Assembly: GCA_028688015.1 (NCBI GenBank)
Contig: JAQTZB010000008.1
Location: forward strand, 62,001 to 126,000
Reading direction: 5' to 3'
DNA: 64,000 nucleotides
Origin: Elusimicrobiales bacterium
GTDB taxonomy: Bacteria > Elusimicrobiota > Elusimicrobia > Elusimicrobiales > UBA9959
Of the stretch, positions 9,341 through 13,451 are shown one piece after another. Position numbers and translations under genes: made by a program. The notes under the pieces were generated by a model that did no database searches, had not been told where the DNA came from, and saw only the letters and a list, made by a program, of their open reading frames with translations. The stretch's first letter is position 1. The number at the start of each line of letters is the position of its first letter.

Positions 9341-9865
9341 GTGAGAAAATTCTGGATCATGGTTACGGACGGGCGGGTGAAGGCGGCGGTGCGGGCGCTG
9401 CAACTGGCCGGCGTGGGTATAGGCGACCTGGCGGCCAAGCCCGGCGAGGCCGCGACTTTTTTCAGGCCGATAAAGATACAGTTATACGCCGCTATTAAGG
9501 AAGGGAAGCCGGCTTCGCTGGCGGTCGTTTCGGCGGCGGAGGATTTAGCCTCGCGGCTGGAGAAAACTTTTTCCGACATGGCGCTGCTGCAGGCCCCGCC
9601 GGACAGGCCCGTGCTGGAAGCGCTGAGACTGATGCAGCGCGCCTGCGCCGCCGCGCCGGACCTGCTTTCGACATCTGGCAGAAAAAACGCGGACCTCGAA
9701 GTCAGGACCTGCTGCGGAGAGGGGCGCAAGACCCTGGTGCTGGCCAAGGCCGCGGCGGAGGGCGCCGGTTTCCCGCAAAATCTCAAATTTAGTAGTATAT
9801 ACTCCGGGCTCGATGCGGCTTTCGACTCGCTCGAACGCTGCGCCGAAGCCCTCTTCAAAGCATAG
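9341..9865 (+). CDS. Hypothetical protein
   Basis: A helical, Ala-rich protein of 174 residues from GTG 9341, or 168 from ATG 9359. I do not recognise a family. There is no signal peptide. Two cysteines sit together in VRTCCGEG near residue 125. It lies nine bases ahead of the 5'-nucleotidase gene and reads in the same direction, so it is probably the first gene of that cluster. A TATTAT box at 9329-9334 six bases before the GTG again suggests a very short leader. Confidence 0.6.
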   Translation: MRKFWIMVTDGRVKAAVRALQLAGVGIGDLAAKPGEAATFFRPIKIQLYAAIKEGKPASLAVVSAAEDLASRLEKTFSDMALLQAPPDRPVLEALRLMQRACAAAPDLLSTSGRKNADLEVRTCCGEGRKTLVLAKAAAEGAGFPQNLKFSSIYSGLDAAFDSLERCAEALFKA

Positions 9866-9874
9866 GAGCCTCCC

Positions 9875-11419
9875 ATGATAAAGTTGCTCGCGGCGCTGCT
9901 GCTGACCCTCCCCCTTTCCGCCTGGTCGCTGACCATCGACGTCTACCACACCAGCGACGTGCACGGCTGGTACTACTCGCGCCCCGCCAAGTGGGACAAA
10001 GAAAATTCCACCCGCACCATAGGCGGCTTCCCGGCCCTTTCAGCCCTGGTCCGGGCCGACAAGAACCCCAAGCTCCTGCTGGACTCCGGCGACACCTTCC
10101 AGGGCACGCCCGAGGGCACGCTGACCAAGGGCCTGGCCACCGTAACTATGATGAACCACCTGGGTTACGCCGCCGCAGCAGTGGGCAACCACGACTACGA
10201 CTACAGCGAAGCCAGCCTGCGCGAGATGGTGAAGCAGTCCAATTTCCCCTGGCTGGGCGCTAACCTCTATGTAAAGGAAAGCGGCAAGGCCGCCGACTAC
10301 GTAAAACCCTACACCGTGATCCCGGTGGGCGGCAAGCGCATCGCGGTCATCGGCATCCTCGGCGAGCATACCGTCACCTCCACGCTGCCGCTGAATGTCA
10401 AGAACCTGGAATTCCGCAGCGAGACCGCCGAGGCCGCGCGCTGGACCAAAGAAGTCCGCGAGAAGGAAAACCCCGACGCCGTCCTGATCCTGGCCCATAA
10501 TGGTCTGGGCGCCCCGCCCGGCCTGGCCGACATGACCGCGTGGACGCCCACGGAGGCCCACGCCTCCTCCGGCACGCTGGGCATAGCCCGCGCCTCCGGC
10601 GCCGACGTTGTGTTCGGCGGGCATATCCACGCCTCCCTGCCGAGCGGCTACCGCGACCCGGTCAGCGGCGCCCTGCTGGTGGAGAGCGGGTCCTCCCTCA
10701 CGCACGTCAGCCGTGTCACGCTCGATTTCGACGATAAAACCGGCAAGCTCAAGGCGACCGCAGTGCAGTTGGTGCCGCTCTGGACCGACCAGACCGGCGA
10801 GGACCAGGCCGCCATCGCCAAACTGAAGGTCTTCAGCGCCCAGGTGGAGGCTGAGATGGGCCGCAAGGTCAGCGAGTCGGCAGTGGACCTCGGCAAGTCA
10901 CCCGACGGGACCGATTCCCCCATCGGCAACTGGTTCGCCGACGCGATGCGCCGGCAGAGCAAAACCGACATCGCCTTCCAGAACACCTCCGGCATCCGCG
11001 CCGAGCTCAAGGCCGGCACCGTGACCGTCCGCGACGTCTTCCAGGTGATGCCCTTCGAGAACACCCTGGTCAAGCTCACGCTGACCGGCGAACAGCTGCG
11101 CCGCCTGCTGGCGGACAACTTCCCGGGCGGCTTCTCCAAGCTCCAGGTCTCCGGCTTGAAGGTCAGCGTTAAAAAGCCCTACGACGACCCCGCCAACGTC
11201 TCGTTGGAGCGGGACGGCAAACCCGTGGCCGACGGTGACAAGTTCTCCGTAGCCACCAACAACTACCTTACCACCGGCGGCACCGGCGGCCGCGTCTTCT
11301 CCGAAGACGCCAAGGCCGAGGACACTATGCAGCCGATCCGCGAAGTGCTCATGAAGGACATCTCCGAGAACCCGGTGAAGGCCCTGCCGGCCGGCGGGAG
11401 AATCGTACGGCTGGACTAG
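9875..11419 (+). CDS. Secreted 5'-nucleotidase / metallophosphatase (UshA family)
   Basis: A 514-residue periplasmic or surface enzyme that removes phosphate from extracellular nucleotides. A signal peptide (LLAALLLTLPLSAWS) ends near residue 18. The metallophosphatase domain keeps its dinuclear metal motifs: HTSDVHG at residues 25-31, DSGDTFQG at 70-77, GNHDYDY at 104-110 and GGHIHA near 249. The C-terminal nucleotide-binding domain begins near residue 330 and has NTSGIRAELKAG and the NNYLTTGGTGG segment. It is immediately followed by a paralogue (11479-12864) in which these residues are lost. Both proteins end in a GGRIV sequence. Likely role: nucleotide scavenging and phosphate supply. Confidence 0.92.
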   Translation: MIKLLAALLLTLPLSAWSLTIDVYHTSDVHGWYYSRPAKWDKENSTRTIGGFPALSALVRADKNPKLLLDSGDTFQGTPEGTLTKGLATVTMMNHLGYAAAAVGNHDYDYSEASLREMVKQSNFPWLGANLYVKESGKAADYVKPYTVIPVGGKRIAVIGILGEHTVTSTLPLNVKNLEFRSETAEAARWTKEVREKENPDAVLILAHNGLGAPPGLADMTAWTPTEAHASSGTLGIARASGADVVFGGHIHASLPSGYRDPVSGALLVESGSSLTHVSRVTLDFDDKTGKLKATAVQLVPLWTDQTGEDQAAIAKLKVFSAQVEAEMGRKVSESAVDLGKSPDGTDSPIGNWFADAMRRQSKTDIAFQNTSGIRAELKAGTVTVRDVFQVMPFENTLVKLTLTGEQLRRLLADNFPGGFSKLQVSGLKVSVKKPYDDPANVSLERDGKPVADGDKFSVATNNYLTTGGTGGRVFSEDAKAEDTMQPIREVLMKDISENPVKALPAGGRIVRLD

Positions 11420-11478
11420 CCCGCCTGCTGCTGGCCGCCCTGCTGCTGGGAGCCGGTGCCTGCACCAAGAAGGAGCAG

Positions 11479-12864
11479 GTGGTGATCTTCGCCACCGCCC
11501 GCGGCGGCGGGACGCTCTCAGCCGACAAGGCCTCCGGCGCCGGCGGCTTCGCCGTCTTCAAGCGCCTCTACGATTCCGAAAAGAAACCCAAGCTCGCGCT
11601 GGACCTGGGCGGCTGGACCGCCTCCACCCCCGAAGGCCGCCTGCAGCGCGGCCGGCCGGCCGCCGCCTGCCTGGGCGCCGTGCCCTACGCCGCGGCCGGC
11701 GTCGGTTTCGACGACCTCGCCCTCCCGCCGCAGGACCTGCAGCGCCTGGCCGAAGAACAGTCCGTCACTCCGCTGCTGGCCTCCAACCTCTATCTCAAGA
11801 CCAACAAAAAGCCCGCCTTCCTGCACAGCTACGCCCTGGTGCGGGCCGGCGGCCGCAAGATAGGCGTCCTTTCGCTGGCGGTTAATTCCCCCTCAAAGCC
11901 GAACACCCCGAAACACCTGCCCAGCTACCGGCTGGAAAAGGAAAGCTACGAGGCGGAGCGCGCCATCAGGGCCCTGAAGGAAGCCGGCGCGCAGCTGACG
12001 GTGATGCTGCTGGCCGTGAACCCGAAGGAGAAAGCGGCCCCCGACTACTTCAAGGCCTTCCTTGCCAAGCTGCCGCGCGTGGACCTGGTCATCACCGACG
12101 AGCCGACGCTGAAGAAGCCGTTCAGGGCCGGCAAGACGTGGGTGGCGCCGGCGGGGCTGGCCCTGGCCCACGCGGCGCGCCTCACGCTAACGCTTGAAAG
12201 CCCCGGCGGCCGCGTGAACGGCCTCAGTTTTAAAAGGATAGCGCTGGACGCGGACAAATACGGCGAAGACCCGGGCGTGCTGAAGGTCATCGCCGGCTAC
12301 CGCGGCGCGGCCGCGGCACATTTCGCGAAGAAGCTGGGCGTACTGAAAGCGCCCCTGCCGCTGCGCGAGGGCGGCCTATCCCCGGCCGCCGATTTCGCCG
12401 CCGACTGCATGCGCCGCTGGGCCCGCACCAACGCGGCCATCATCGGGCTCTCGGAGCTGGCCGCCGGACTGCCGGCCGGCCCGGTGACGCTGGGCGACCT
12501 GCACGCCTCTTTCCCCCTGGATTCCAGCGTGGTCTTCGTCAAGATCCGCGGCGACGACCTTGAGCGCGCCCTGGCGGGCCTGAATCCCGGCGAGCTCAGC
12601 GTCTCCGGCCTGCGGCTCTTCCTGCGCGACGGCGCGCTGGAACGGGCCGAGGGCGAGAACGGCCCGCTGACGCCTGGCAAGGTCTACCACCTGGCGGTGC
12701 CGGACTCGCTGGTGAGCGGCCGGGAGAACCCCGTGCTCTCCAGCGCGATGGAGTTCGCGAACTCCAAGCGCTCGCTGCGCGAAGTGGTGGGCTGGTGCTT
12801 CTCGCGCCAGAGCTCTTTTTCCAGGCCGGCCGGCGGCCGGATCGTAAAGGCGGGTAACGACTGA
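11479..12864 (+). CDS. Inactive-looking UshA-family paralogue, probable lipoprotein, start codon unclear
   Basis: It aligns along its whole length with the preceding 5'-nucleotidase but lacks the metal ligands: HTSDVHG becomes ATARGGG (residues 5-11), DSGDTFQG becomes DLGGWTAS (42-49), GNHDYDY becomes GFDDLAL (76-82), and GGHIHA is gone. The first canonical start is GTG 11479, yet the same frame upstream encodes LLLAALLLGAGAC (11425-11463), a lipobox signal sequence that belongs to this protein. The frame is open back to a stop at 11236 with no ATG, GTG or TTG. ACG 11407, six bases after a GGGAG, or CTG 11425 could start it. Probably a catalytically dead, membrane-anchored nucleotide-binding or regulatory protein. 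Its stop overlaps the next ATG (ATGA). Confidence 0.82.
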   Translation: MVIFATARGGGTLSADKASGAGGFAVFKRLYDSEKKPKLALDLGGWTASTPEGRLQRGRPAAACLGAVPYAAAGVGFDDLALPPQDLQRLAEEQSVTPLLASNLYLKTNKKPAFLHSYALVRAGGRKIGVLSLAVNSPSKPNTPKHLPSYRLEKESYEAERAIRALKEAGAQLTVMLLAVNPKEKAAPDYFKAFLAKLPRVDLVITDEPTLKKPFRAGKTWVAPAGLALAHAARLTLTLESPGGRVNGLSFKRIALDADKYGEDPGVLKVIAGYRGAAAAHFAKKLGVLKAPLPLREGGLSPAADFAADCMRRWARTNAAIIGLSELAAGLPAGPVTLGDLHASFPLDSSVVFVKIRGDDLERALAGLNPGELSVSGLRLFLRDGALERAEGENGPLTPGKVYHLAVPDSLVSGRENPVLSSAMEFANSKRSLREVVGWCFSRQSSFSRPAGGRIVKAGND

Positions 12865-13451
12865 TGTTCCAGGCGCTGGCGGCTTTCTTCGGCAAGTGGT
12901 ACGGCCGTTTCAAGGCCTTCTGCATCCTCGCCGGCGCGTGGGGCTTCCTGTTCAGCGTGAATTCGCTGATAGGTTTCCAGGCCGGTTTCGAGTACGACGA
13001 CGGGCTGGTCTATTCCACCCCGGCCTTCCAAGCGGCCGCGAAGGACAAACTGGAGCCGGGCACCCCGGATTACTGGAACTCCGTCAACCGCTCCTTCGCT
13101 TACGAGCGCCTGAAGCCCGTACCTTGGCTCGCCGCCTGGGCCCTGAAGGCGCTGGGCGTCAAGATAGCCGTGTTCTGCGACCGCGGCAGAGAAGGGAGCG
13201 ACAGCCTGGAGGCCTCCTGGCGCAGGCTCGCCGATTACTTCTACTTCACTTCCGCCGAGGACGAAAAATACCGCCTGCTGGAAAAATACCGCTTTATCCT
13301 TTACGCGGCCCCGTCCGACGCCGGCGTGATCCAGGCCCGCAAGGCCGGCGTCACGCCGCTTCGCGTCAGAAAAAGCCCCAAGTCCACGGGCGCACTGGAA
13401 AGCAACCCCGGCAAGTTCGGAGAAAAGATCCTGCCCCTCTCGGCCTTCTGA
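12864..13451 (+). CDS. Class B acid phosphatase (AphA)-like HAD protein lacking catalytic motifs
   Basis: A 195-residue protein with an N-terminal signal anchor (residues about 17-38). From residue 39 it follows the AphA layout, but the HAD motifs are altered. The nucleophile motif DIDDT of AphA reads EYDDG here (residues 43-47), so the attacking Asp is Glu. The Thr-containing motif II (VTGRS in AphA) reads FCDRGRE. Motif IV (GDSDND) reads AAPSDA. The C-terminal GVTPLRVRKS and FGEKILP segments match AphA end to end, which supports the homology. Phosphatase activity is therefore unlikely. The ATG overlaps the stop of the nucleotidase-like gene, so the two are translationally coupled. Confidence 0.75.
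   Translation: MFQALAAFFGKWYGRFKAFCILAGAWGFLFSVNSLIGFQAGFEYDDGLVYSTPAFQAAAKDKLEPGTPDYWNSVNRSFAYERLKPVPWLAAWALKALGVKIAVFCDRGREGSDSLEASWRRLADYFYFTSAEDEKYRLLEKYRFILYAAPSDAGVIQARKAGVTPLRVRKSPKSTGALESNPGKFGEKILPLSAF

Follow-up and report, generated by a model that had tools for sequence, protein, structure and literature searches.

Why would a bacterium keep, next to a gene for a UshA-type 5'-nucleotidase with all its catalytic motifs, a second copy whose active site is gone? The question is raised by a locus within a 64,000-nucleotide stretch of Elusimicrobiales DNA (hereafter the window), which lies on contig C39 of a 3.34-Mb genome assembled in 58 contigs. A sequence-only reading of the locus had described the second protein as a maintained, lipid-anchored pseudo-nucleotidase. 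We followed the locus through the order and the phylum. In what follows, act is the live UshA copy, pse the dead UshA copy and aph the AphA-like third gene (Table 1); f1 is the family of the window and f2 the other family of the same order, and G and L numbers designate genomes and loci. Two tiny stretches, L106 and L181, were excluded.

An emptied active site and a lipobox in the second UshA copy

Table 1. Features of the act-pse-aph locus (positions in the window)
Feature	Position	Strand	Remarks
'up', conserved 174-aa protein	9341..9865	+	ORF; no Pfam family; often directly before act
act, live UshA-type 5'-nucleotidase	9875..11419	+	Pfam Metallophos 7e-13, 5_nucleotid_C 4e-35
pse, pseudo-UshA, full-length UshA fold	11407..12864 (start approximate)	+	metal ligands, catalytic His and both substrate residues (Arg, Phe) lost
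pse lipoprotein signal with lipobox Cys (codon 11461-11463)	11407..11463	+	ACG at 11407 as candidate start
ATARGGG replacing HTSDVHG	11491..11511	+	metal ligands Asp and His lost
DLGG replacing DSGD	11602..11613	+	bridging Asp lost
GFDD replacing GNHD	11704..11715	+	metal Asn and catalytic His lost
aph, pseudo-AphA, class B acid phosphatase fold	12864..13451	+	N-terminal hydrophobic helix; FEYDDG, APSDAG

The act protein has a full set of metal and catalytic motifs and a signal peptide that, by eye, is devoid of a lipobox, and it matches solved 5'-nucleotidases (PDB 3ivd, E 8e-51; 1hp1, E 4e-31). Outside the window, the genome encodes a further UshA-type paralogue, likewise live, with 52% identity to act (G000:C42:103832-105361); the UshA copies of genus members without the cassette are of this type. 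Relatives of the 'up' protein were found by tblastn upstream of act at many loci with enough flank, and the 'up' gene often follows rpsI and precedes act. A DUF47 identity was considered for 'up' and rejected, the curated Pfam match being absent in the three copies tried.

An alignment of act with pse covers most of both proteins (465 columns, 27% identity, E 3e-41), and a C-terminal GGRIV is common to the two, as the sequence-only reading had noted. All the motif losses that it listed are present in pse, namely HTSDVHG to ATARGGG, LDSGD to LDLGG, GNHD to GFDD and GGHIH to TDEPT, to which we add LAHNG to LLAVN, GIR to ELA, PFEN to PLDS and, in a longer form, GNHDYD to GFDDLA. The pse frame is open, and its TGA stop codon (12862-12864) overlaps the aph ATG at 12864 by one base, in line with the coupling to the next gene described earlier. 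In the Pfam search, pse of the window matched 5_nucleotid_C only (1.3e-11, above cut-off). That family was matched by all 44 aligned f1 pse proteins, none of which was listed for Metallophos at E<=0.01. The two-domain fold of UshA was recognized in pse, and the structure model predicts the fold confidently. Membership of the NCBIfam UshA-like (seleno)protein family was rejected (30.5 bits against a cut-off of 275).

Ten positions were scored on a single alignment: the six metal ligands, the two catalytic residues (His and Asp) and two residues that bind the substrate. The dinuclear metal ligands are taken to be Asp, His, Asp, Asn, His and His, and the Arg and stacking Phe of the UshA C-domain presumably hold the substrate. 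In act, every scored residue is kept in each of the 44 f1 rows that cover it (L075 and L076, which are third paralogues, were omitted). The window pse has none of the six ligands, and both substrate residues are gone. Among 47 f1 pse proteins, with gaps counted as losses, 36 keep no metal ligand, seven keep one and four keep two; the first Asp is kept in six, the first His in three, the bridging Asp in five, the Asn in one and the His of the fourth and fifth motifs in none. Two of the 47 keep the catalytic Asp place, two the substrate Arg and three the Phe. The catalytic His is kept in none of them and in none of 29 dead copies of f2. This scoring omits the short L055 and L071 as well as L097-L100; L032 lacks its N-terminus at a contig end. 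L097-L100 are four very diverged pse proteins, all without the catalytic His; in the alignment used for these four, a His still stands at the place of the fourth motif in L097 and L098, and L100 has retained the first and bridging Asp. In most rows of the genus the old motifs are replaced by pse-specific ones (TDEP, FPxDSS, VPDS, EFANS and GWC). Thus, compared with the UshA/CD73 family (E. coli UshA, PDB 1ush; 3ivd), pse differs by the loss of the metal ligands, catalytic His and substrate Arg and Phe, and also by its lipid anchor and the lack of a Metallophos match.

The lipid anchor proposed by the sequence-only reading was borne out by the lipobox pattern, and the start that it assigned to pse was not. 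This start, the GTG at 11479, lies downstream of the lipobox Cys codon and hence cuts off the anchor. The lipoprotein signal is found in the same open frame (LLLAALLLGAGAC-TKKE), and no in-frame ATG, GTG or TTG occurs upstream of the lipobox in the window. Within the stretch inspected, the same is true of four of the other loci (L007, L011, L012 and L026), making five of 43 with no such codon there before the Cys; the others have one. In each of the five, an ACG in frame follows a sequence resembling GGAG(G). The ACG at 11407 is possibly the pse start, as the best candidate, albeit a non-canonical one; it is only a candidate because it also falls within conserved act codons.

Lipoboxes were called by pattern. 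Among dead copies, the lipobox Cys was called in 41 of 45 f1 rows (a count that omits L055, L032, L072 and L073) and in 28 of 29 f2 rows. The four f1 rows missed by the pattern (L016, L018, L024 and L069) still have a Cys there, and this Cys is nearly invariant in the f1 pse alignment A1. With a wider pattern the counts were 29/29 for f2 and 36/44 for the f1 loci L057-L105, cut ones included. Live UshA proteins rarely show a lipobox-type pattern: 1/31 for f2 plus two class loci, 0/26 for f1, 1/18 for the genus loci and 3/43 for class loci outside the order. The lipobox is thus frequent in dead and rare in live copies, which points to a recurrent design, a soluble live enzyme accompanied by an anchored dead twin.

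Distribution and origin of the live/dead UshA tandem

A search with pse matched 58 of the 59 f1 genomes, live copies included; pse and aph orthologues were therefore counted by position and profile. The two genes occur together in 51 of the 59 genomes, with pse present in all 13 genera. In two further genomes, G007 and G013, pse lies at a contig end, and six have neither gene (G014, G028, G033, G040, G042 and G044). The UshA copies of the last five form a third, live paralogue group apart from act; in G014, no UshA copy was found. The whole cassette is absent from G033 and G040, two genus members that are more than 90% complete, which indicates that it can be lost. In G013, pse is split over two frames at the contig end (L071 3694-5203), owing to an assembly error or to a real break in the gene.

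In 47 of the 51 genomes with pse and aph, act is directly upstream of pse; this figure includes G049, whose contig contains no more of act than its final 55 residues. The exceptions are G017 and G047, in which the contig ends there, G012, with act on another contig, and G004 (87% complete), in which no live UshA was found at E<=1e-10.

A profile search of the phylum with pse led to f2. We sampled 29 of its 90 genomes (9 + 20), picked from the matches listed and not at random, and in all 29 a live UshA gene is followed by a degenerate one. The co-occurrence with the active copy that the sequence-only reading had proposed to check is thus a tandem in 47/51 f1 and 29/29 sampled f2 genomes. Close orthologues with intact metal motifs, which that reading had named as counter-evidence, were found neither among the 47 f1 copies nor among the 29 sampled f2 copies. 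The aph gene was found in none of the 90 f2 genomes, and within the order it is confined to f1. Thus, the live/dead UshA pair is common to the two families of the order, and the dead AphA belongs to f1. The idea that the dead copy is an invention of f1 was overturned by the same tandem in f2.

In the f2 dead copies the catalytic His is replaced by Lys, Ala, Gln, Glu, Thr, Ser or Met; three of the 29 keep no metal ligand, 25 keep one and a single copy, that of G129, keeps four of the six. The G129 protein (L172 2874-4499) has intermediate motifs (HTADVHG, LGGGD, GGMDFA, VTHIG and GGNSH), with Met for the catalytic His, Gly for the Asn and Asn for a His. Judging by these motifs, it appears to be a natural step between live and dead UshA. 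At six f2 loci (L188, L189, L190, L191, L193 and L197), two copies with live motifs stand in tandem before the dead one, one of them cut in L197; the array has thus grown to three in some f2 genomes.

In a quick tree, 26 dead copies of f1 and f2 form one clade away from act (SH-aLRT 99.8). The G129 copy is the first in the f2 part of this clade (support 87), and a live UshA of family f12 is sister to the dead clade (support 93, same tree). The single clade apart from act leaves a duplication from act within f1 unsupported and suggests that pse originated at or before the base of the order; the deep root is unsure because of long branches.

All three genes are under purifying selection. The dN/dS check suggested in the sequence-only reading gave 0.09-0.34 for pse in 17 pairs, about that of act (0.04-0.31 in 14 pairs); for aph it was 0.04-0.29 in the 16 of 17 pairs with a finite value.

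A second phosphatase family without its nucleophile

The third gene had been overlooked in the earlier reading. Judging by its motifs, aph is itself probably a second inactivated phosphatase. It matches the NCBIfam AphA profile (4e-7) with 29.8 bits, far below the equivalog cut-off of 195.8, and this profile was matched by all 44 aligned f1 aph proteins (alignments A1 and A2 have 44 rows each, shorter or partial rows being excluded). Against AphA structures in the PDB, 1z5g was matched with E 8e-4. The AlphaFold2 model has a pLDDT of 91, and its 13 best Foldseek matches are all AphA proteins. Its N-terminal helix, called from hydrophobicity and the model, is long in the model and, on a simple measure, scores as hydrophobic in 33 of 44 rows. 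The nucleophilic Asp of AphA (FDIDDT) is Glu in 44/44 f1 rows, most of which read FEYDDG, and motif IV, GDSDND, has become APSDAG in the window and is degenerate in its relatives. Thus, aph shares the fold and family profile of AphA (PDB 1z5g, 2b82) and differs from it by the replacement of the nucleophile, the loss of the motif IV acids and a hydrophobic N-terminal helix directly before the first strand. As pse and aph both look dead, two of the three neighbouring phosphatase-fold genes of f1 would be inactive. A second partial pse (74% identical) and aph (82%) are present on a 3,089-base contig of the same assembly (G000:C11; L002, L077), perhaps from a sibling species given the 6.9% contamination of this metagenome-assembled genome.

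At E<=0.01, 115 of the 340 genomes examined in the phylum had a match to the aph profile. Of 64 AphA loci outside f1, 39 encode Asp at the nucleophile position and 22 a different residue (Glu, Gly, Ala, Cys or Thr); three are cut and unreadable there (L132, L133 and L171), which leaves 61 readable loci. In families f13-f15, UshA precedes AphA on the same strand at 41 of 53 loci; its motifs are live at 40 of these, and the remaining row (L147) is unreadable. In f11, the run at L119, the locus on which Pfam was run, consists of genes for a Pit transporter (PHO4), DUF47, UshA, an unknown 270-aa protein and a live AphA, which ties the UshA and AphA genes to phosphate. At L119 and L120 this run ends with a gene that we named by eye as triosephosphate isomerase, and we read it as a phosphate operon. 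At the seven loci of the distant families f19, f28 and f29 the AphA motifs are intact and no same-strand UshA was found. Nine f15 loci (L116, L118, L121, L156 and L158-L162) encode AphA-like proteins without the nucleophile (Gly or Glu), with no same-strand UshA nearby; genes resembling rplM and rpsI are close by at the first three of them (by eye), and G223, the genome of one such protein, has a live UshA on another contig.

In a tree built from 106 AphA rows (66 dead, 39 live and one uncounted), the live/dead label requires five changes, whether the motif columns are left in or masked (quick trees). A single common clade of dead AphA proteins was rejected with an AU p of 0.00015, also from quick trees in which some long branches were flagged. 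Together with the live outgroups, the five changes indicate that the AphA nucleophile was lost repeatedly in the class.

Possible roles of the inactive proteins

The sequences point to pse being kept as a pseudoenzyme with a non-catalytic job. We give about even chances to the proposal that the gene products form a conserved assembly of enzyme and pseudoenzymes in the envelope, where dead subunits held at the membrane would dock or regulate the live nucleotidase, a partner role that we infer. In such an assembly, act would be a soluble periplasmic UshA-type nucleotidase and pse its catalytically empty twin, lipid-held at a membrane; in f1, aph would be an AphA-like fold held by its N-terminal membrane helix, without the catalytic nucleophile. 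The dead copies would have non-catalytic functions, most likely that of docking or regulating act from the membrane, with pse resembling those dead paralogues by which a live partner is activated or positioned, and the whole might serve nucleotide and phosphate scavenging in the periplasm. Of the regulatory, nucleotide-sensing or partner roles envisaged by the sequence-only reading, that of a partner is plausible given the near-constant neighbourhood; nucleotide sensing by the old site is unsupported, since so few f1 copies keep the substrate Arg (2/47) or Phe (3/47).

Branch lengths in 40 related genomes bear on this proposal. The rate of pse follows that of aph beyond that of act (partial r 0.63, a value reached in none of 1000 permutations), a similar covariation links aph with act (partial r 0.65), and pse against act given aph gives -0.05; with 13 chosen representatives the partial r is 0.53, and these values are suggestive only. 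Such values would fit if aph stood between the other two proteins in f1, or if pse and aph formed a unit, which keeps our confidence in the docking model moderate. The value of -0.05 counts against a direct contact between act and pse, as contact would predict the reverse. The two genomes in which pse and aph occur without act directly upstream (G004 and G012) also speak against a partnership with act, as does the absence of the cassette from G033 and G040. A dead AphA is not needed for the pair, since f2 has the dead UshA but no AphA.

Alternatively, pse and aph might act by themselves as a receptor or sensor without catalysis, its ligand being phosphate, a nucleotide or something else, with act a mere neighbour by descent. 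In favour of this, the two genes adjoin in 51/51 f1 genomes that have both, G004 and G012 among them, their branch lengths covary given act, and dead AphA persists without a UshA neighbour in three f15 genera. Nevertheless, we consider this reading rather unlikely: in f2, pse is present in all 29 sampled genomes and aph in 0/90, aph covaries with act as well, and the near-constant loss of the substrate Arg and Phe means that the ligand would have to be new. More doubtful still is an enzymatic role of pse through a new active site that works without metal. The f1 proteins do have invariant or nearly invariant polar residues of their own, many of them in the C-terminal domain (Tyr410, Asp416, Ser417, Glu432, Asn435, Arg441 and Trp446 in alignment A1, row 1 numbering), but no His is found among these columns, and what we take to be the known active site of the fold is the one that pse has lost.

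That pse is a decaying duplicate caught before its loss could be argued from the broken copy of G013 and from the absence of the cassette in two nearly complete members of the genus. Yet G013 alone, among the pse matches listed, has inner stops, and the fold is predicted with confidence. The presence of pse in both families of the order, a dN/dS about that of act and the conserved lipid anchor all agree with the earlier view that the gene is maintained, so that decay is largely refuted and has a very small probability. Smaller yet, and refuted, is the case for a misassembly, contamination or frame error: the contamination of the assembly and the second partial pse-aph on a 3-kb contig would allow it, but the same arrangement recurs in many independent assemblies, one of them 93% identical in pse. 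An assembly of act with its inactive neighbours is the reading that we prefer.

VPS29 and the B subunits of DNA polymerases are pseudo-phosphoesterases of the calcineurin fold that serve as non-catalytic subunits. As in pse, a metallophosphoesterase fold has been kept there without catalysis; to our knowledge, they have neither a live tandem paralogue nor a nucleotidase C-domain. Dead paralogues that activate a live partner are known as the prozymes of trypanosomatids, those of S-adenosylmethionine decarboxylase (AdoMetDC; PMC5201418) and of deoxyhypusine synthase (PMC3663545). There, as with act and pse, a live enzyme is kept with its dead paralogue; the prozymes are eukaryotic and their complexes were shown by experiment, whereas the act-pse pair is bacterial and envelope-anchored, and its complex a proposed one. 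In the portions of the open-licence literature that were available, we found no account of a live UshA or AphA accompanied by an inactive copy. One survey table marks Elusimicrobiota as devoid of ushA-like and cpdB-like genes (PMC10454023); the UshA copies with intact motifs speak against it as a general statement, as the phylum, judged by motif, encodes live UshA-type enzymes.

Enzyme-pseudoenzyme pairs are well known; what is found here is an order-wide pair of live and dead periplasmic nucleotidases, with a second, inactivated phosphatase family beside it. For annotation, this means that not every gene labelled 'nucleotidase' or 'acid phosphatase' in such genomes should be taken to stand for an activity. 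The series with its G129 intermediate offers natural material on how and why enzymes become non-catalytic parts. More tentatively, and with less confidence than in the assembly itself, we propose that the order has turned periplasmic phosphatases into a non-catalytic, membrane-held complex, in which a dead UshA lipoprotein of single origin, predating the split of the families, was joined in f1 by a dead AphA, the AphA nucleophile having been lost at least about five times in the class while the gene was kept, often beside UshA. If this is true, the conserved role of AphA would never have been mainly catalysis, but rather organizing or sensing for nucleotide and phosphate uptake.
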